Shown here piece after piece: positions 3,001 to 50,241 of a stretch of DNA of 64,000 bases (position 1 is its first letter; each line of letters starts with the position of its first letter). The notes below the pieces were generated by a model. The model saw only the letters and a list, made by a program, of their open reading frames with translations. It searched no databases and was not told the origin of the DNA. The stretch lies in contig JAAFKA010000005.1 of NCBI GenBank assembly GCA_013299115.1, forward strand, positions 1 through 64,000. Reading direction: 5' to 3'. This DNA comes from Cytophagales bacterium (GTDB taxonomy: Bacteria > Bacteroidota > Bacteroidia > Cytophagales > Thermoflexibacteraceae). The translations under genes and the position numbers were made by a program.

Positions 3001-6000
3001 AACAGTGATAGTTTTGGTAACAGTGGTCGTACAACCTAAGGCAGTAACCGCATAAGAAATTACCGAAGTTCCTGCTGCCACAGGCGTAATTACACCTGTG
3101 GTGGCGTTGATAGTTGCCACTGTTGGCGTTGCACTACTCCAAACTCCTGCTGCGGTTGCGTTGGTGTAGGTAGTTGTGCCTCCCATACATACGTTAGCTG
3201 CACCTGCAATAGCTGCCACTACGGGGGCTGCATTGACAGTTAAAGTAGCTACTGCCGAAGTAACAGGACAAGCCACCGCACCCGAAGTATTGGTAATGAT
3301 TACTCTATATTCATTGGTAGTCATACCTGCTGTTACGCCTGTCAAGGTCAAAGTAGCCAAAGTTGCACCACTATAAACACCACCATTGGGAATGTTGGTA
3401 AATGCACCTGCTGGTACTTTTTCCTGCCATTGGTAACTCAACGTGCCTGTACCTGTGGCTGCTGCTGTGAAAGTTGTGTTTAGCCCTGCACAAACATTTT
3501 GAGCCAAAGTCATTGAAGTAATGGCTGGCGGTGCTAAAATTGTCAAGGTTGCAGTATTGGAGTTGAGGTCGCAAGTTGCAAGCCCAATCGTATTGGTTAC
3601 AACACAACGATAAGTACGGTTGTTGAAAGATGTACCTACGCCTGTTAAGTTTAAAGTTGTAGTAGTTGCGTTGCTATATACACCTCCGTTTGCAATGTTG
3701 TTGAAACCTGCCCCATTGTTTTCTTGCCATTGGTAGCTTAACGTGCCAACTAAGGCAGTAGCTGCCACTGTGAAAGAGGCGTTGCCTGTGGTGGTCGTAC
3801 ATATACTTGCGTCTGTGGGTTGTGTGCCAATGGTTAAGCCCGAACAAGTTACCACAATGCTATAATTTTGCGTTACAGAACAGTTATTGACATCAGTTGC
3901 ACTAACAGCAAAGTTGTATGTACCTGCAACAGTTGGTGTGCCTGTTAAAGCACCTGCACCCGAAAGAGTTAAGCCTGTGGGCAATGTGCCAGAGAAAACT
4001 GTGTAATTGACAGCACCCGAACCGCCGACTGCATTAAAGTTTACAGTGGTGTATGCTGTACCCACTGTTCCTGTTGCCAAAGCACCAGTTGCTGGTGTTA
4101 AGGTAATGGTTGGGCAACTTACAATGATTGTGTAAGCCCTAAAACCTGTGCAAAGATTTGCACTTCCGTCTGTTGCTGTAACAGTGAAATTGTAAGTACC
4201 TGCAACAGTTGGAGTTCCCGATAATACGCCTGCACCTGTGAGGGTCATGCCTGTTGGCAATGCACCTGCGGTTACTGCAAAAGTGTAAGGGGCTGTTCCG
4301 CCTGTGGCTGCATAATTGACAGTTACGTAAGCTGTGCCTGTGGTGGCTGTGCCTGTAATGGTAGCTGGATTAACGGTGATGGCAGCACAACCAGCAACGT
4401 TTACTACGCCCTTTATTGGAAAAACGAAGGGGTTAGCAACGACATCGTTGGTGGTGAATTGTATATTTCCGTTGTATGTTCCCGCAGCCAATGCGTCAAG
4501 ACGAACTTGGAAAGTGGCTGTTCCTCCGTTTATGGCTACCGAAGTTGGGAATAAACCCACCAAACTAAACCCTGCGGGCAAAGTCAAGGCAGATAAATTG
4601 AGTGCAAAGTTACCATTGTTGGTAATGGTAAAAGTTTTGGTAACAGGAGTACCTACGTTGGTAATACCAAAATCTGTGATATTGACTGTATTATTAGGTA
4701 TCAAAGTTGCCCCATCTTCTACTTTTATGACTGGTTTCGTTATCATATAACGAGCATAAACAGGCAAGTGGTCAGAAGTTGTTGTACCATAATTGTTAGT
4801 CGGCAACGGACTGAACACATCAGGCATGGTGGCTGTACCTTCTAAGGTGTAGTCATACAATTCGTTTGAGGTCATCAGGTGGTCAATCACGTTTAATTGC
4901 GTGAGGTAAGACCTCCAATTATCATTACTCAAATTGACTGTATTTACTTTAAACCTTGCGGGGTCATTCACAAAAGGTGCATAGGTGCTTGCACCATTCA
5001 AAGGGTCAGACGAAACAGTAATGTCCACATCATCATTGTAATCTCCCCCAATAATAATTTTTGCAGTTGGGAAATCAATGTCTAATTGCTGTTTCAAATA
5101 CTCCAAATCTGCTTTTCTGCGGTCATAATCTTGACGGTCGCCGTTTGCTTTGGCATGTATGCCAATCAAATGCAATTTTGATGTTACGCCATTCATTGTG
5201 GCATCAACAACCAACATGGCAGGGAAACGACCAGACGACCAGAAACTTGTGGGAGCAACAGGATAAACAGGCGGAACAAAACTCTCTAAATAACACGAAA
5301 CATTGCCCCCGTTTACCGCAGGGTCAGGTGTAATAATAGAAGTACGATAAATGAAACCTATTTTTTGTCCTTGGTCTATTGGTGTTGAGGATTTATGCGA
5401 CCAGCAAGGAGATAATTTTCCTGCATAACCTGGCATAGCTGCTACCAAATCATTGAACAAAGCCACATTACAAATTTCAGACAAAATAATTACGTCTGCT
5501 TGGGTGCTTGCCAAAATAGCTGCTGCATTGTCTTTTTGCAAAGTCGTATTGGCGGGGCCATTGGGAGGGAAACCAAACCATTCTAAGTTCCACGCAATTA
5601 CGTCTAAACTTTCGGTGCGAGGTACAGCTTGATAGGTTACGGCGTGGGGTGCAAGACTTGCCACGTCTGTAATCATACGAGGTTGGAATTGGTAAACTCC
5701 TCTGAATTGCGAAATTACGCCGACCATAGTAGCCGAAGTTGCAGGGATTTTTTGCCCTATGATGTTCAAATCTGCAACATTGGCAGAGGCTGTTCTGCAA
5801 ATTGCGTTGGTAATTGCACCATAATTGAACCTATAACTTGTGGCAGGAATAAACAAACCTCTATCGGTAATACTTGCTGCATTGATTTGCACTAATTTTC
5901 CTTCATCGGCTTCGGTCATTGCACCACCCAAAATAATAGGCGTTGGAGGCACAGCAGGGGCTGCCGAAATAGTATAAGAAGTGATAGGGCTGATTTGACG

Positions 6001-10387: not shown

Positions 10388-13300
10388 CTATTTATTTTTC
10401 GCAAGCTGTTTCGTTACGGCTGCGTCTATGTCATTTGCCAATTTTTGAAAATACCTATTCAACAACCTTTCTTGTGGGGCTGGCACTTCTGCCAACTCGT
10501 CAAAAGGCATCAGCTTGTCTTTTCGCAACAAATCTGCAAAGTCATATTCACTTTGATAGGTTTTGAAAAACTGCATAGCTTTCAGATTCTCGTCATTGAA
10601 AAAACTACATTCTCTTAGCAAAATAGGCACAATCAAATAGCCTTCATTTTTTCGTTTGTCTAACATCTTTTTCAATTCATCTGCCATACAATAATGTGAA
10701 CCCAAAAACATAGGGCTAACCAACAAAATACCGATAGAAGAACCTTCAAGGGCATCTTGGATTGTTTCATTCCAATCATCACCAATAGCAATTTCTTTGT
10801 CTGTCCAAACCTCGCCAAACTTGTTTTTCGTACTTTTGAGGTAGATTTTTAGTCGCAGTTCCATAATTTGGCGAAGGTTGCGGTCTGCACTGCAATAGGA
10901 AATGAAAATGTTGTTTTTATCAACTTTTAATTTTTCCTCCTTCGGCTTTTCCTCCACTTTATTTTCCTTTGGTTTTTCGCCTTGTGGCAAAGGTACTGGC
11001 TTAGCATCGGTTTTTCTCGTTGCCTTGTCAAAATGCGAATTGATAAAAACAACTACATTCTGTTTAAAAATGCTGTTTTTTTCGCCATCAACAAAACGGG
11101 TGCGTAGTTGCGAATAAGTGGCTTGATTAGCCCCAAAATGATAATTGTTTAACTCCGAAAACACAGCACCTAATTGGTCTTCGTCTATCAAACTTAATAA
11201 TTCTTGCTTGGTCATAAAGTTGTGGTTTTCTATTTCCTCAAAACTGTTACCTATCGGGTGGCTCGCAGCCACCCGATAGGTAGTTTCCTCAAAACTATCA
11301 AATTTGCTCGACATTCCAAATCTGAGAAAAGACATTTCTTTGTCCCTACGTATTACCTTTACCTCATACTCTAAAAAATTATAGCCTAACAAAACATCAT
11401 CTAACAAAGGTCTAATAGGCACAAATTTAAAACTTTCCTCACACCGTATTTCATAAACCTTATTATTCAAATATTTTATCAATGTATTGTACTTATACAA
11501 TTCGGGTTTTTCACTTGGGCTGCACACCTCACAATTACAAGGCACTTTTAGAACAGGCTGTTGAGTTTCGTCAAAATTATAGTAACTGTTAATGGTTTGG
11601 ATTTCGTTGCTAATCACTGCCAACAAATCTTTTCGTTGCAAACCCACCACTCGTATTGTTATCGTAGGCACTTTGTTTTTGTAAGTTTCTGTTACAAAGG
11701 CTTTTGTGTCGGGGGTGTAATGTTTGGGGGCAAAAATAACACCTTCTTTCCACACAATATTGTCTTCGCCTATCCACGTATGTAACCGAACTATCAAACG
11801 CCAAAAAATACCGTGCAAAGGAAAAGAATAATCAAACTGCACTTGCAAATTATGGGCAAAGTTCCAATCATACGCAGGTGCTTTGGCAGAAAGTAATTGA
11901 GGCATCACATACATTTCGTTTTGCTGATAACACAACTCAAATTTTTCTATGATTTTCAACAAAAACAAGTGCATTTTTTCATAACTGCCTTCATATTTGG
12001 GCTGTTCCCACAGGTTTTTGGCATCTTGGGCAGAAAATTGTCCTTTGTTCATAAAATCTATCAATTCATACACAGCTTTTGTAACCCAAGTGGGCTGCAA
12101 AAAGATTTTGTGCTGCAAAAAATCATCTTCTTTGTAGTACAACAATACGCCCAAATCGTGGAGATATTGCCCCAAATCTTGCTGGCGTAACTTTTCGGGT
12201 ACATTGTGTTGCTCGCAAATTTCTTGGTATTTTTCTAAGGAAATATGGGCTTGCGTTTTGCACTCCAACGCCTGCCGAACTGCCAACCAATCGACAGGAA
12301 AAGGTCTTTGCATAGTTTCCAATGCCGAAAAATGAGTTTTGATAGCCTCCTCCAATTTATCTAAACCCGAATTGTCTGCCAAGTCCACCTGAAAAACACC
12401 CCGAATATTGCTAAATTGGAAGTCGGGCAATTCTTTTTTGCGTTTGTCTTTTTCGTTCTGCACAATCAGCACTGGACTATTACCACCCAAAAGTTTTATT
12501 TTTTCTAACCAATAGTTAAAATCAGTGTCCTCTTTGCGGTTGTCGGTCAAGAGAATATACAGCGAATTGCGGGTAAGAAAAAAACGGTGCGTATTTCTGT
12601 AAATTTCCTGCCCACCAAAATCCCAAATATTGGCGGTATAGGTCTGTTCTTTGTGCGGAAACTGCCATTTTCTGATAGCCAAGCCATGCGTAGTGGGCTG
12701 TGTAGTCAATACATAACCTCTATTCATTAGTTTCTCTGCCAAACTTGTTTTGCCCGCCTCACCTTCGCCCACTATCAAGAGTTTTGCCTCATACAAAGGT
12801 TTGCCTTTTTTCTCCTCCAAAAATCTGCGAATTGCCTCCTTGCCTTCTTTGATTACTTCTATTGGTACATCTGAAATGGGGTTGCCATAAAGATTGATGC
12901 CTCCTTTAAGTAAATAAAAATCATCATCCCATTTAATGGCTAAATCAGTATTTAATAAAAATTCAGGAAATAAAACAACTTTGTTATCACTTGCATCAAC
13001 ATTTGTCAAATTAGGTAAATGCTGTAAAACAGAAATATCTGAAACTTGATTATTTGGAAACCATAATCTTATTAACTTAGCCAAATGCCTCAATACAGAA
13101 ATATCAGAAACTGCGTTTGAACCAAAATATAGCTCTGTTAAATTAGGTAAATACTCTAAAATAGAAATATCAGAAACTTGATTCTCCCAAAAAGATAATG
13201 TATCTAACCTTGATAGGTAGCGTAAAACTGAAATATCAGAAATTTGATTACCACCAAAGTTTAAATTAGTTAGCTTCTTTAAGAGTTGTAAAGCAGAAAT

Positions 13301-13999
13301 TTTGGTAACTTTATTTTGCCAAAAATATAATTTAGTTAAATTTGTTAAGTGCTGCAAAGCAGTAATATTAGAAATTTGATTGTTTCCAAAACTCAAATCA
13401 GTTAAATTTGGGAGGTGTTGCAAAACAGAAATATTGGAAACTTGATTATTTGTAAAATTTAACTTTGTTAAATTTATTAAGTGCTGCAAAACTGAAATAT
13501 CAGAAATCTGATTGTTCCCAAAATTTAAACTTGTTAAGTTAATTAAGTACTGCAAAACAGAAATATTGGAAACTTGATTATTATCAAACCATAATTCTCT
13601 TAAATCATTTAAGTACTGTAAAGTAGTAATATCGGAAATCTGGTTGCCTCTAAAATCTAAATTAACTAAATTAGTTAAGTGCTGTAAAACAGAAATATCT
13701 GAAACTTGATTGTTACTAAACCATAAAGTTTCTAAATTTGTCAAGTGTTGCAAAATAGAAATATCTGAAACTTGATTATCTATAAAATTTAGGTGAGTTA
13801 AATTTGGTAAGGCTTGCAAAAAATCAATGTTTTGTAGTTCACACATACACACATTTAAGCCCACTACCTCTTGTTTTTCGTTAAGGAAATATAATATTGA
13901 TTCATTCCAAAAATTAAGAATATCATCCCTGTTTTCAGTTTCATTGAGTTCAAAACCTAAAATTTTTTCTATTTGGATTATTTGTTGTGGTTTTTGCAT
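10388..13999 (-). CDS. LRR-ROC-COR-TIR protein (bacterial Roco with C-terminal TIR)
   Basis: 1203 residues. About 13 internalin-type 22-residue leucine-rich repeats (LTNLxxLxFxNNQISDISVLQH) fill roughly residues 65-370. A ROC GTPase follows, with P-loop GEGEAGKTS at about 412 and the switch motif WDFGGQE at about 460; the NKxD position reads QNEKD. A COR-like segment spans about 560-800. A charged linker (KPKENKVEEKPKEEK) leads to a TIR domain at about 1030-1165 (NNIFISYCSAD ... WTDKEIAIGDDW ... SHYCMADEL, whose Glu is the likely NADase residue). No signal peptide is seen, so it is probably cytoplasmic. By analogy the LRRs sense, the GTPase switches and the TIR signals or depletes NAD+. The architecture is plain; an immune role is inferred. 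Residues about 902-922 come from a palindromic insertion. Confidence 0.88.
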   Translation of the reverse strand: MQKPQQIIQIEKILGFELNETENRDDILNFWNESILYFLNEKQEVVGLNVCMCELQNIDFLQALPNLTHLNFIDNQVSDISILQHLTNLETLWFSNNQVSDISVLQHLTNLVNLDFRGNQISDITTLQYLNDLRELWFDNNQVSNISVLQYLINLTSLNFGNNQISDISVLQHLINLTKLNFTNNQVSNISVLQHLPNLTDLSFGNNQISNITALQHLTNLTKLYFWQNKVTKISALQLLKKLTNLNFGGNQISDISVLRYLSRLDTLSFWENQVSDISILEYLPNLTELYFGSNAVSDISVLRHLAKLIRLWFPNNQVSDISVLQHLPNLTNVDASDNKVVLFPEFLLNTDLAIKWDDDFYLLKGGINLYGNPISDVPIEVIKEGKEAIRRFLEEKKGKPLYEAKLLIVGEGEAGKTSLAEKLMNRGYVLTTQPTTHGLAIRKWQFPHKEQTYTANIWDFGGQEIYRNTHRFFLTRNSLYILLTDNRKEDTDFNYWLEKIKLLGGNSPVLIVQNEKDKRKKELPDFQFSNIRGVFQVDLADNSGLDKLEEAIKTHFSALETMQRPFPVDWLAVRQALECKTQAHISLEKYQEICEQHNVPEKLRQQDLGQYLHDLGVLLYYKEDDFLQHKIFLQPTWVTKAVYELIDFMNKGQFSAQDAKNLWEQPKYEGSYEKMHLFLLKIIEKFELCYQQNEMYVMPQLLSAKAPAYDWNFAHNLQVQFDYSFPLHGIFWRLIVRLHTWIGEDNIVWKEGVIFAPKHYTPDTKAFVTETYKNKVPTITIRVVGLQRKDLLAVISNEIQTINSYYNFDETQQPVLKVPCNCEVCSPSEKPELYKYNTLIKYLNNKVYEIRCEESFKFVPIRPLLDDVLLGYNFLEYEVKVIRRDKEMSFLRFGMSSKFDSFEETTYRVAASHPIGNSFEEIENHNFMTKQELLSLIDEDQLGAVFSELNNYHFGANQATYSQLRTRFVDGEKNSIFKQNVVVFINSHFDKATRKTDAKPVPLPQGEKPKENKVEEKPKEEKLKVDKNNIFISYCSADRNLRQIMELRLKIYLKSTKNKFGEVWTDKEIAIGDDWNETIQDALEGSSIGILLVSPMFLGSHYCMADELKKMLDKRKNEGYLIVPILLRECSFFNDENLKAMQFFKTYQSEYDFADLLRKDKLMPFDELAEVPAPQERLLNRYFQKLANDIDAAVTKQLAKNK
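11233..11296. repeat. In-frame palindromic insertion in the LRR-ROC-COR-TIR gene, with 13-bp direct repeats
   Basis: A perfect hairpin (15-base arms ACCTATCGGGTGGCT, loop CGC, 11248-11280) is flanked on both sides by TTTCCTCAAAACT (11233-11245 and 11284-11296). The repeat spacing is 51 bp, or 17 codons, so the frame is kept and the protein reads FEETTYRVAASHPIGNSFEE. The core GGGTGGCT-nnn-AGCCACCC recurs in the intergenic hairpin at 41450-41482. Confidence 0.9.
12990..13830 (-). repeat. 66-bp tandem repeats encoding the LRR array
   Basis: About 13 copies of a 66-bp unit encode the 22-residue leucine-rich repeats. Several copies share long identical stretches such as the DNA for NQVSDISVLQHL, so copy number could change by slippage or recombination. 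Confidence 0.8.
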
Positions 14000-14350
14000 G
14001 GTAGTTATTTTTTTGAAACCTCGGCAGTGGCTTTTTCAGCCCTGCCGATGGTTGAAAAAAAAACAACTATTGGCAGGGCTGAAAAAGCCACTGCCAAAGT
14101 AGTTTTTTTTGCGAAAAAATCCTATTATTTTTCTATTTGGATTATTTGTTGTGGTTTTTGCATGGTGTGTAGCCAATGTTATTAAGCTAAGAAATAATTA
14201 AAAATGCCTTTTTGTCCCGTAGGGACTTCATATTGGTAGAAAAAACAGCCCACCCTCACTTTTTGTCCCGTTAGGGACTTTATATTGGTAGCCAATTTGA
14301 TTTACCAATATAAAGTCCCTAACGGGACAAAAATAATTTTTTTAGTCTAT
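14000..14350. repeat. Two long perfect inverted repeats and a start-codon fragment upstream of the LRR-ROC-COR-TIR gene
   Basis: A 24-bp perfect inverted repeat (14023-14046 against 14072-14095, GGCAGTGGCTTTTTCAGCCC...) is followed by a 31-bp perfect inverted repeat (14260-14290 against 14303-14333, containing GTCCCGTTAGGGAC). Between them, 14125-14163 copies the first 12 codons of the neighbouring gene. No other coding potential is seen. Confidence 0.85.
14125..14163 (-). pseudogene. Stub copy of the LRR-ROC-COR-TIR gene start
   Basis: Reads MQKPQQIIQIEK then stop, identical to the first 12 residues of the gene starting at 13999. Confidence 0.8.
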
Positions 14351-14664
14351 TAAGCCCCCAGCCCCAAAGGGGAGTTTGATGGGGTGTTTTTTTTGCTAAG
14401 ATAAGAAGTTTTTTTGAAAAAAACCTTATAAGGTCTTTAAGACCTTATAAGGTTCGAGTTTTTTGTTTCTTTTAGCAACAGCGTTGCGTGCCGTTGGTAG
14501 CAAAAGCAAATGTATAATTGTGTGTAAGCACCAGCGGTGCGTACCAAGCCAGACAAGGTACGCACCGCTGGTGCTTAGAAAATAAACCCTTATTTGTGCT
14601 ACCGACGGCATCGCCTCTACGAGGCTGGAAAAAATGTTCTGAAAAGGTATAATTTTGATTTTTG

Positions 14665-14754
14665 TCAATGAAGAATATCCTCACTATTTTCAGTTTCAGT
14701 GAGTTCAAAGCCTAAAATTTTTTCTATTTGGATTATTTGTTGTGGTTTTTGCAT
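14665..14754 (-). pseudogene. 29-codon stub copy of the LRR-ROC-COR-TIR gene start
   Basis: Starts MQKPQQIIQIEKILGFEL and continues TETENSEDILH before a stop. It matches the real gene (NETENRDDILN) with a few substitutions, then diverges into repeat sequence. Confidence 0.8.
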
Positions 14755-15086
14755 GGTGTGTAGCCCCCAGTTAAGCCCCCAGCCCCAAAGGGGAGTTTTG
14801 ATGGGGTGTTTTTTTTTGCTAAGGTAAGAAGTTTTTTGAAAAAAACCTTATAAGGTCTTAAAGACCTTATAAGGTTTGAGTTTTTTGTTTCTTTTAGCAA
14901 CAGCGTTGCGTGCCGTTGGTAGCAAAAGCAAATGTATAATTGTGTGTAAGCACCAGCGGTGCGTACCAAGCCCGACAAGGTACGCACCGCTGGTGCTTAG
15001 AAAATAAACCCTTATTTGTGCCACCAACGGCATCGCCTCTACGAGGCTGGAAAAAATGTTCTGAAAAGGTATAATTTTGATTTTTG

Positions 15087-15176
15087 TCAATGAAGAATAT
15101 CCTCACTGTTTTGAGTTTCAGTGAGTTCAAAGCCTAAAATTTTTTCTATTTGGATTATTTGTTGTGGTTTTTGCAT
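15087..15176 (-). pseudogene. Second 29-codon stub copy of the LRR-ROC-COR-TIR gene start
   Basis: Same as the stub at 14665-14754 with one Glu-to-Gln change (TETQNSEDILH, stop). It stops at the same point, so the two stubs were copied as part of the array unit. Confidence 0.8.
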
Positions 15177-15504
15177 GGTGTGTAGCCCCCAGTTAAGCCC
15201 CCAGCCCCAAAGGGGAGTTTGATGGGGTGTTTTTTTTGCTAAGATAAGAAGTTTTTTTGAAAAAAACCTTATAAGGTCTTTAAGACCTTATAAGGTTCGA
15301 GTTTTTTGTTTCTTTTAGCAACAGCGTTGCGTGCCGTTGGTAGCAAAAGCAAATGTATAATTGTGTGTAAGCACCAGCGGTGCGTACCAAGCCAGACAAG
15401 GTACGCACCGCTGGTGCTTAGAAAATATACTCTTATTTGGACTACCAACAGCATCGCCTCTACGAGGCTGAAAATAAAAGTAAGTTTTTTTGTTTTTTTC
15501 AACC

Positions 15505-15590
15505 TCGGCAGTGGCTTTTTTGCCCTGCCGATGGTTAGTTGGTTGGTTGCAAAAAAACAACTATCGGCAGGGCAAAAAAGCCACTGCCGA
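15505..15590. repeat. 28-bp perfect inverted repeat, CGGCAGTGGC family
   Basis: Arms at 15505-15532 and 15563-15590 are exact reverse complements (TCGGCAGTGGCTTTTTTGCC...). It is the same family as 14023-14095 and 18566-18608. It lies just past the stop of the MoxR-like gene and may end its transcript. Confidence 0.85.
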
Positions 15591-15620
15591 AGTCGTTTTT
15601 TAACGTAGTTTTTTTGCCAC

Positions 15621-30196: not shown

Positions 30197-30297
30197 AATT
30201 TCATTTTAAATATATTATTCGTTACAAAATTTGGGCTATAAAAAATGCCTTCCTTTTTGCGAAAGTCCGTAGCTAAAGATAATTCGTAAGTTGTCAT
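30181..30297 (-). pseudogene. 5' remnant of a third type IIG-like methylase gene
   Basis: Reads MTTYELSLATDFRKKEG and continues IFYSPNFV before diverging into NNIFKMKLCIQT and a stop. The first 27 or so residues match the start of the gene at 30370-32364 with one or two changes. Confidence 0.75.
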
Positions 30298-30305
30298 TTT
30301 TATGT

Positions 30306-30367
30306 TGTAGCTGTGGGCTTTAGCCCGCAGCAAATTAGGTCTCTGCGGACTGAAGTCCGCAGCTACA
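30306..30367. repeat. GGGCTTTAGCCC-type nested palindrome, copy 1
   Basis: Outer arms TGTAGCTG and CAGCTACA enclose palindromes GTGGGCTTTAGCCCGC and GCGGACTGAAGTCCGC. Same structure as 32373-32434, with which it was duplicated. It begins two bases after the methylase stop codon. Confidence 0.85.
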
Positions 30368-30369
30368 GA

Positions 30370-32364
30370 TTACATTTCCACAATTTTTATTTCCTCCTCA
30401 CTTAACCCATATAAAGCATAAATCAACTTATCTATTTGATTTTCAAGGGTTTGTGTTTGCGATAAAACAGATTTTGCATTTTTTTGTTCTGCTGAAAACA
30501 CATCAAAAAAAGCATATTGTTCTTTCATTGGAATTGTAATTTTTTGCTTTTCTAATTCTAATAAAAATTCTCTTTCACTTAATAAATGCCATTCTGTTAT
30601 TTTTTTTGAGATTTTTATATTGCTAAAATTTCTCAATAAAAAATTAGAAAACTTACTTTGTAAGGCTTTTAATTCTTTGTTGAGTAATAATATTTGTGTA
30701 ACTTTTTCTATGAAAACTTGTTTTTGCGTTTCACTCAAAAAAGGAATAGGAACATTAACCATTTTATTGTAATCTAATTTGTTGCGACCTTTTTCGTCTG
30801 CATTGCCATAAGCCACAAAATGAAGTTTTTTGTAAAACTGAAATACTTTTGAATTGAGAAAAGCCGACAAAAATACATCTGCATTAGAGATAATAAAGCA
30901 AGAGTTATTGACATAAAAACCCTCCACATCATAGTAAAAATAATGATTGACTGCGGTGTAGATATAAATAATTTTGGGTTGTTCAAATTTATCGTAATAA
31001 TCACAAGCCCGCAAATTATAATGTGTTTTGCCTTTGTCCTGCCTTACTGCCAATTCCGCATCAAATTGTTGTAAATGTTCATAAATTGCAAAGTAATTTT
31101 CGGGCGAAATTTCGGTGTCAAAGCCTGTGTTAATCAAAAAACTTTCGTTTTTATCCTCAATTTCCCACCGTTTAATGGCTGTTGGTTGAGCATAGGGTTT
31201 TATCAACTCTGCACTTCGAGCATCTTTGGCTATCAAAGCTGCTTTGGTATCTTTGTCTATAATAAAAGCCTTGTTTAAAGCCGTTTTAATGCCCAAATAA
31301 ATTGCATTATTTGTATATTCTTCGAGAGAAATCACTTTTACGCCTGTTTTTCCTAATATTTTATCGAGAATAATTTGTGCCTTTGGGCTTGCAAAAACCC
31401 ATTCTTCTTCGTTCAAATTACCCTGGTTAATGCTTAATTTTTTGGTCAAATTTTTAGCAAAATCTTCTATTTTTCCGTCTGGTAACAAGGCTTTTGTAAC
31501 AGGAAAATAAGCAAAATTTGTAGTTTCTTTGGTGGTTATTGCATTTTTAAGCACAATGATTTGAGGCTCTGTGCTGGCATCTGCAAAAATTTTGAGTTCA
31601 AAAAAATCTACAATGTGTTGAATATCATAGCTTTGCAATAGTTTTCGCAAACCTAAACCATATTGTGTTTTAAACCATTTGTTCGGAGTAATAAATGCCA
31701 AAAGTCCATCAGCTTGCAACATTTCTAAGGCTTTTGCATAAAAATAAACATACAAATCTGCTCCACTATGATACACATTTGCATATCTTTTGGCATAATA
31801 TTTTTTCTGCTTTTCGCCCAATAATTCCTGCCTCACATAAGGTGGATTTCCTAAAATGATTGTAAAACCATCATCGCCAAACCTTACAAGGTTTTCAGAA
31901 CCTTGTAAGGTCTTTTTGAATACTTGTGGAAATTCAGTCTGCCAATTAAAAGGTTGTTCGGCAATATTTTTGTCGTCTATCAACGAATTTCCAACCTTGA
32001 TATTATCGCAATAAAAACCACTTCTTTCAAAAAGTTGTTGCTTACAAATACTTACAGCTTGTTCATCTAAATCTACACCAAATAAATTATTTTCGATAAT
32101 AAATTTTGCAACTCCTTCATTATCAGGAAAATAGCTTTGGTATTGTTGAAATAAAAAATCAAAACTTTCTATCAAAAAAGCACCTGCACCACAAGACAAA
32201 TCAAGAACAGTAATTTGTTGCAATGCCTCAAAATGATTTTCGGCACTTGCTAAATAATTTCCTATGGTTTCTGTAATGATGTATTTTGTTATAAAATTTG
32301 GGCTATAAAAAATGCCTTCCTTTTTGCGAAAGTCCGCAGCTAAAGATAATTCGTAAGTTGTCAT
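30370..32364 (-). CDS. Type IIG-like adenine-specific DNA methylase, tandem paralogue lacking the nuclease half
   Basis: 664 residues from the ATG at 32364 (MTTYELSLAADFRKKEG); a longer frame to 32400 reads through a hairpin and is unlikely. SAM motif I is VLDLSCGAGAFL (about 53-64) and the N6-adenine catalytic motif is NPPYV (about 174). The rest resembles Eco57I-type methylase/specificity regions. Compared with the neighbour at 32437-35586 it lacks the N-terminal nuclease domain, but the last 36 residues are almost the same (NQIDKLIYALYGLSEEEIKI). It may methylate a second site or be a decaying duplicate. Residues about 151-161 come from a palindromic insertion just before the catalytic motif. 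Confidence 0.85.
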   Translation of the reverse strand: MTTYELSLAADFRKKEGIFYSPNFITKYIITETIGNYLASAENHFEALQQITVLDLSCGAGAFLIESFDFLFQQYQSYFPDNEGVAKFIIENNLFGVDLDEQAVSICKQQLFERSGFYCDNIKVGNSLIDDKNIAEQPFNWQTEFPQVFKKTLQGSENLVRFGDDGFTIILGNPPYVRQELLGEKQKKYYAKRYANVYHSGADLYVYFYAKALEMLQADGLLAFITPNKWFKTQYGLGLRKLLQSYDIQHIVDFFELKIFADASTEPQIIVLKNAITTKETTNFAYFPVTKALLPDGKIEDFAKNLTKKLSINQGNLNEEEWVFASPKAQIILDKILGKTGVKVISLEEYTNNAIYLGIKTALNKAFIIDKDTKAALIAKDARSAELIKPYAQPTAIKRWEIEDKNESFLINTGFDTEISPENYFAIYEHLQQFDAELAVRQDKGKTHYNLRACDYYDKFEQPKIIYIYTAVNHYFYYDVEGFYVNNSCFIISNADVFLSAFLNSKVFQFYKKLHFVAYGNADEKGRNKLDYNKMVNVPIPFLSETQKQVFIEKVTQILLLNKELKALQSKFSNFLLRNFSNIKISKKITEWHLLSEREFLLELEKQKITIPMKEQYAFFDVFSAEQKNAKSVLSQTQTLENQIDKLIYALYGLSEEEIKIVEM
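31881..31911. repeat. In-frame palindromic insertion in the methylase paralogue
   Basis: 31-nt hairpin: 13-base arms ACCTTACAAGGTT / AACCTTGTAAGGT, loop TTCAG. The paralogue protein reads EFPMPMNEGGFTLIVGNPPY, while this one has about 14 extra residues (FKKTLQGSENLVRF) at that point. Related hairpins occur at 14422-14454, 44946-44982, 50249-50279 and 58399-58425. Confidence 0.85.
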
Positions 32365-48741: not shown

Positions 48742-50241
48742 ATGAATATAAAAAAAATAGTAGTAGCCAATCGGGGCGAAATAGCCTTGCGGGTCATGCG
48801 GACAGCCAAAGACATGGGCATCAAGACCGTAGCCGTTTACAGCACAGCAGACCGCAAAGCCTTGCACGTGAGGTATGCAGACGAAGCCTATTGCATAGGC
48901 GAAGCCCCCTCGTCCCAGTCTTATTTGTTGGGCGACAAAATCATAGCTCTTGCCAAAAGTTGCGGAGCAGATGCCATACACCCTGGTTATGGTTTTTTGT
49001 CTGAAAACGCCAACTTCTCTCGCAAATGTAAGGAGGCTGGTATCATTTTTATAGGACCTTCGGCAGAGTCTATAGAAATAATGGGCAGCAAAATAGGGGC
49101 AAAAAAAGCCGCCGCCAGCTACAATATTCCGTTGGTGCCAGGTATCAACGAAGCCATAAGTGATGTGGAGGAGGCAAAAAAGGTAGCCAAACAAATAGGT
49201 TATCCAATTTTGATTAAGGCAAGTGCAGGCGGTGGTGGCAAAGGTATGCGGTTGGTCGAGAAAGAGGAGGACTTTGCAGAGCAGATGCAACGTGCTGTAA
49301 GTGAAGCAGTTGCAGCCTTTGGTGATGGGTCTGTTTTCATAGAAAAATTTGTTACATCGCCTCGCCACATAGAAATTCAGTTGGTTGGCGACCAACATGG
49401 CAACGTGGTTCATTTTTTCGAAAGAGAATGTTCTATTCAACGCCGCCACCAAAAGTTGGTGGAGGAAGCCCCAAGTTCTTGCCTTACACCCGAAATTAGA
49501 GAAAAAATGGGCAAGTGTGCAACAGACGTGGCAAGGGCTTGTAACTACTACGGGGCTGGCACTGTGGAGTTTGTGGTAGATGCCGACCTGAATTTTTACT
49601 TTTTGGAAATGAACACCCGTTTGCAAGTGGAACACCCTGTAAGTGAACTGATTACAGGCGTGGATTTGGTAAGGTTGCAAATTTTGGTGGCAGAAGGCAA
49701 ACCATTGCCCATGAAACAAGAAGACCTGAAAATAAATGGTCATGCAATGGAAATTCGGGTTTGTGCCGAAAATCCGCTAAACAACTTCTTGCCCGAAGTA
49801 GGTACACTGACTACTTACAAAAGACCACAAGGTACAGGCGTAAGGGTGGATGATGGGTTTGAGCAAGGTATGGAAATACCAATTTACTACGACTCGATGA
49901 TTGCCAAACTGATAACCTACGGCAAAGACCGCAGCGAAACCATAGCCCGCATGATTAGGGCAATAGACGAATACCAAATTACTGGTGTGCCTACTACTTT
50001 GCAGTTTTGCCAATTTGTCATGCGTCATGAGGCTTTTGTTTCGGGTGATTTTAACACCAAATTCATAGAAAAATACTATAAACCCAAACTGCTGGCTGCA
50101 CCCTTAACCGCAGATGAGGCACAAGTGGCTGCTTTGCTGTTGCACCACATCATAGAGGAAAAACCAACTGCCCAACTTGCCCCTACGCCTTCGCAAGCTA
50201 CGCCACTTGCAAAAAGTAAGTGGAGAGAAAGGGCAAAGTAA
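48742..50241 (+). CDS. accC: Biotin carboxylase subunit of acyl-CoA carboxylase
   Basis: 499 residues beginning KKIVVANRGEIALRVMRTA, with the ATP-grasp loop ASAGGGGKGMRLV (about 160), ERECSIQRRHQKLVEEAPS and FLEMNTRLQVEHPVSELITG. It carboxylates biotin carried on a carrier protein, using ATP and bicarbonate, for fatty acid or branched acyl-CoA synthesis. The protein is about 50 residues longer than E. coli AccC, with a C-terminal low-complexity tail (QLAPTPSQATPLAKSK), so it may belong to a propionyl- or acetyl-CoA carboxylase of the PccA type. No carboxyltransferase or carrier gene is adjacent. Last gene of the operon, followed by a hairpin at 50249. Confidence 0.9.
   Translation: MNIKKIVVANRGEIALRVMRTAKDMGIKTVAVYSTADRKALHVRYADEAYCIGEAPSSQSYLLGDKIIALAKSCGADAIHPGYGFLSENANFSRKCKEAGIIFIGPSAESIEIMGSKIGAKKAAASYNIPLVPGINEAISDVEEAKKVAKQIGYPILIKASAGGGGKGMRLVEKEEDFAEQMQRAVSEAVAAFGDGSVFIEKFVTSPRHIEIQLVGDQHGNVVHFFERECSIQRRHQKLVEEAPSSCLTPEIREKMGKCATDVARACNYYGAGTVEFVVDADLNFYFLEMNTRLQVEHPVSELITGVDLVRLQILVAEGKPLPMKQEDLKINGHAMEIRVCAENPLNNFLPEVGTLTTYKRPQGTGVRVDDGFEQGMEIPIYYDSMIAKLITYGKDRSETIARMIRAIDEYQITGVPTTLQFCQFVMRHEAFVSGDFNTKFIEKYYKPKLLAAPLTADEAQVAALLLHHIIEEKPTAQLAPTPSQATPLAKSKWRERAK

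Follow-up and report, generated by a model that had tools for sequence, protein, structure and literature searches.

The three partial copies of a gene start that lie upstream of a live LRR-Roc-COR-TIR gene in a Cytophagales bacterium (assembly GCA_013299115.1) are probably non-functional leftovers of an old, local partial tandem duplication in palindrome-rich DNA, and not interchangeable starts. On the strength of sequence comparison, we put the probability of this reading at roughly three in four. The features on which it is built are given below by their positions in the window, the whole stretch of 64,000 nucleotides that was analysed (contig JAAFKA010000005.1, positions 1 to 64,000).

10388..13999, minus strand: live LRR-Roc-COR-TIR gene, 1203 aa (ORF; Pfam LRR_4, Roc, COR-A, COR-B, TIR_2)
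14018..14100, no strand: GGCAGTGGC-family palindromic element that separates copy A from the live start (inverted repeat, copy-number profile)
14128..14163, minus strand: start copy A, which matches the live start in all of its 12 codons and is followed by TAA TAG (start codon 14163-14161)
14180..14355, no strand: GTCCC-palindrome insertion with 8-bp direct repeats GCTTAATA (14180-14187 and 14348-14355)
14350-15474: tandem array of a 422-bp unit, 2.7 copies, 96% matches (TRF; in this assembly of 74 contigs the copy number of the 421-bp repeat may be wrong)
14350..14770, minus strand: tandem unit B, 421 bp, made up of a palindrome-rich block and start copy B (TRF, alignment)
14648..14757, minus strand: start copy B, with homology that extends from -3 to around codon 38 (start codon 14754; TGA 14667-14665)
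14771..15192, minus strand: tandem unit C, 422 bp, differing from unit B by 8 substitutions and 3 gaps of one base
15070..15179, minus strand: start copy C (start codon 15176; TGA 15089-15087)
15193..15474, minus strand: block D, in which the block recurs a third time, incompletely, and which lacks an upstream start fragment
15318..15343, plus strand: GTAG-tagged hairpin AGCAACAGCGTTGCGTGCCGTTGGTAG in block D, with further copies at 14475-14500 and 14897-14922
15502..15593, no strand: another palindrome of the GGCAGTGGC family, bounding the array on its far side

The live gene scores above the Pfam cut-offs for LRR, Roc, COR-A, COR-B and TIR. It shares the LRR, Roc, COR-A and COR-B domains with bacterial Roco proteins (LRR-Roc-COR), in the same order, and differs from them by its C-terminal TIR domain, the product being a predicted receptor known from sequence. 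The gene is immune-receptor-like; membership of a defence system is not claimed, since the PADLOC matches are limited to the TIR domain. A search of named genomes for relatives of the LRR protein gave none. With a profile built on the N-terminal region of the family, 17 genomes out of 291 in the order were found to carry that region.

Alignment and TRF confirmed the original prediction: the beginning of the gene is found three more times upstream, in unchanged orientation, as stretches of its first 12, 29 and 29 codons, and two of these belong to a tandem unit of 421/422 bp. All three copies lie within 1.2 kb and share an upstream context, GGCTACACACC. Copies B and C are each 93% identical to the gene start (13999) over the first 88 nt, and the whole-genome DNA match of the start copies (E = 4.4e-33) excludes chance; the same search gave no further DNA-level match to the copies in this genome. 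Their ends had been described as coinciding at codon 29. B and C do end alike, as duplicates of one unit, but the end does not lie at codon 29: in both copies codon 30 is TGA, the translated match to the live gene continues past it to codon 37-38, and the N-terminal-region profile matches positions 1-37 of both, with one stop inside.

The family alignment places this TGA on a conserved tryptophan (W). Downstream of it B and C read QKSKLYLF, compared with EKSKTYLL in a relative from another genome (G003) and NESILYFL in the live gene, and beyond codon 29 the two copies are closer to other members of the family than to the live gene. Both also have T at codon 19, without the extra F codon that the live gene carries. 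Recent copying from the live gene was dropped as an origin for B and C after this alignment; the family-like residues and the absent extra codon point instead to an older form of the gene, or to a relative.

The arrangement of the array suggests how such fragments could have come to lie there. Read in the sense of the gene, the order is block D, start C, block C, start B, block B, GTCCC insertion, start A, GGCAGTGGC-family palindrome and live start. The D-C and C-B junctions are alike, and so is the B-A junction once the GCTTAATA-flanked insert is removed. Blocks D, C and B are thus each followed by a start (C, B and A, respectively), which suggests stepwise partial tandem duplication. The palindromic elements that compose the array occur many times elsewhere in the genome; the GGCAGTGGC-family element, for instance, is dispersed, with about 30-40 matches in the sampled DNA and copies also in contigs C24 and C39.

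The divergence between blocks is uneven. Over about 225 bp blocks D and B do not differ at all, yet the first 53 bp of block D hold 8 substitutions. This left-hand divergence (8/53) resembles that between fragment and gene (roughly 8% plus indels), and together with the identity on the right it would fit an early partial duplication followed by homogenisation or by a second duplication. It counts against this reading that blocks D and B are identical while the intervening block C differs, for which an extra conversion step is needed. We therefore envisage the following order of events. An old partial tandem duplication would have taken in the first ~38 codons of the gene (or of a relative in tandem with it) along with a palindrome-rich block of intergenic DNA; the start so duplicated would then have decayed, its tryptophan codon becoming TGA, while the live gene kept changing; a later tandem duplication would have produced units B and C; and palindromic elements would finally have inserted, one separating block B from start A and the other separating start A from the live start. 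The palindromes may have helped the duplications by slippage or template switching. With a partial tandem duplication that leaves a truncated 5-prime remnant, the locus shares direct orientation, local position, block-start register and nonsense decay; unlike a plain case, it has three serial blocks, later palindromic insertions and signs of block homogenisation. The earlier suggestion that the copies are by-products of repeat amplification is thus borne out by the three blocks and starts in register, by the identity of D and B over ~225 bp and by similar remnants across the genome (see below).

Silent recombination cassettes, such as pilS and vls, are partial gene copies near an expressed gene, and the original prediction had alternatively proposed that the copies form a set from which the start or leader could be exchanged. 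In its functional form, recombination of these copies with the live gene would alter expression. At the live start, the first 47 aligned nucleotides are identical to B and C and the next 66 hold all 9 substitutions (Fisher p ~0.01 for this split, in a single test chosen after the data were seen), a clustering that could reflect a past recombination tract with the live start. Each tandem unit also carries one TAnnTTTG site on the minus strand (14514, 14936 and 15357), directed at the next gene start; such sites, which we take as possible Bacteroidota promoters (-7 motif), number 4 against 0.47 in shuffles, 3 of the 4 being copies of a single site. The resemblance to pilS/vls-type cassettes ends with the position of partial copies near a live gene. 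The copies here lack variety (B and C have 2 differences in ~91 nt, and there is no protein variety among the copies), represent the wrong gene end for ligand variation, and contain a nonsense codon. A is only 12 codons long, and B and C run into their stop at a conserved site, short of the LRRs. Exchange over the tract of identity would leave the protein unchanged, and recombination between direct repeats would delete DNA, not exchange it. It had also been asked whether the same array precedes other LRR genes, and no such array of starts lies upstream of the two paralogs checked (C23 and C15). A cassette function is, on balance, highly improbable.

A regulatory role, in which the copies would serve as short upstream ORFs or yield decoy RNAs or antisense RNAs covering the translation start of the gene, appears scarcely credible. 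B and C do hold an open frame of 29 codons across the start region, and short N-terminal-only frames of the family occur in two other genomes (31 codons in G002 and 46 in G069). Over the first 88 nt, however, B differs from the live gene by 2 synonymous and 4 non-synonymous substitutions, which gives no sign of purifying selection, and Rfam returned no family at gathering score in the region, the matches being all below it and reflecting hairpins only.

These frames in G002 (contig C99) and G069 (contig C90) each end in a stop. In G003 (contig C71), a look-alike of the LRR start, 11 codons long and with a nearly identical leader, lies immediately before a Y1-type transposase gene, which itself stands upstream of an intact LRR gene; on the basis of 33 nt, this look-alike is probably a further N-terminal remnant of the family. 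Such N-terminal-only remnants in G002, G069 and probably G003 favour the remnant reading. That start fragments of the LRR family, in at least three and probably four genomes of the order, are kept because they recombine with live starts or regulate them seems very unlikely. At the G003 locus (L205), the transposase gene starts right behind the look-alike at 2433 and 2467, and within G003 GTAG-tagged hairpins matching GCGNRCCGTTGGTAG were found at this locus only.

To place the array in its genomic context, we sampled 2.42 Mb of the genome in pieces for intergenic gene-end fragments, and found 35 fragments of gene starts or ends, some of which may be shared C-terminal domains or members of tandem families, the fragment filter and ORF caller being simple. 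For 23 of the 35 the source is no more than 12 kb away, and in this local group 22 are in direct orientation (p 6e-6). Local end fragments number 19 in 2.28 Mb here against 1 in 1.13 Mb of control DNA (p 0.007), the control being 67 loci of ~17 kb from other Bacteroidota, picked by an ATPase gene and matched for size but not for family. Examples include C23:103118-103261, which corresponds to the first 45 codons of another gene (presumably mnmE, as which it reads), and C4:88869-88962, the last 31 codons of C4:92646-95051. Many fragment edges lie less than 10 nt from a start or stop codon, and 9 of 14 5-prime fragment edges fall between -9 and +9; random breakpoints do not predict such sharp edges. 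Fragments are no nearer to dispersed repeats than random intergenic places are (15 observed, 12.7 expected), so that palindromes are not shown as their cause.

Single loci gave further observations. Directly behind the stop codon of the gene at window 30370-32364, positions 30218-30369 repeat the first 80 nt of this gene and 72 nt upstream of it with 97% identity. Window 46257-46345 matches -20 to +69 of the ORF C4:97575-99911 with 99% identity and may be a dispersed repeat, and nt 9 to 71 of the ORF at window 48742-50241 are matched at 87% in intergenic C67:49676-49737. In G000:C23:166928-177648, an LRR-Roc gene has a copy of its 3-prime end downstream (167579-167930, 98%) and a partial one upstream (175090-175141), both starting at gene position 4477.

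The survey bears on another origin of the start copies, as the 5-prime ends left behind when full-length LRR paralogs in tandem, one or several, lost their bodies by deletion. Between fragments and their sources, 162 of 282 substitutions fall at third codon positions (p 1e-16), indicating that much of the divergence arose under coding constraint, on one side at least, and suggesting an earlier coding life; this bias is in keeping with the partial-duplication reading too. The C23 paralog is flanked on both sides by copies of its own 3-prime end, contig C67 holds a tandem gene array with 3-prime leftovers, and the likeness of B and C to other family members beyond codon 29 would also fit. At the locus itself, decay of a full-length tandem paralog and partial duplication are indistinguishable. 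The array, however, contains no trace of LRR, Roc, COR or TIR, and partial duplication accounts for the register of blocks and starts with no need of a vanished gene body, which leaves paralog decay an unlikely origin.

The palindromic component of the array recalls REP sequences. In the 2.42 Mb sampled, GTTGGTAG occurs 286 times, versus 62 for its reversed control, and ATATTGGTAG 64 times, versus 3. The genome thus holds a many-copy short hairpin with a terminal GTAG, as in GTAG-tagged REPs, whereas the exact tail of the array hairpin is rare (5 genome sites). Short dispersed palindromes in mosaics, some of them ending in GTAG, are shared with REP/BIME mosaics and GTAG-tagged palindromes (PMC3733652, PMC2817692). 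A further shared trait with REP/GTAG systems is the presence of RAYT-like Y1-type transposase genes: there are three Y1_Tnp genes in the genome, and one in G003 adjoins the LRR gene. In the portion of PMC3733652 considered here, GTAG repeats are given for Proteobacteria, Cyanobacteria, Chloroflexi and PVC, with Bacteroidetes under CGTC repeats only; GTAG-tagged palindromes nevertheless appear abundant in the sampled contigs of this genome (G000).

The process behind the start copies is an ordinary one in an unusually legible form. The locus displays, step by step, how partial tandem duplication in palindrome-rich intergenic DNA strands decayed starts beside a live gene, and it serves as a warning against taking such start copies for cassettes. 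The genome around it is rich in comparable gene-end remnants, with edges that are sharp near start or stop codons.
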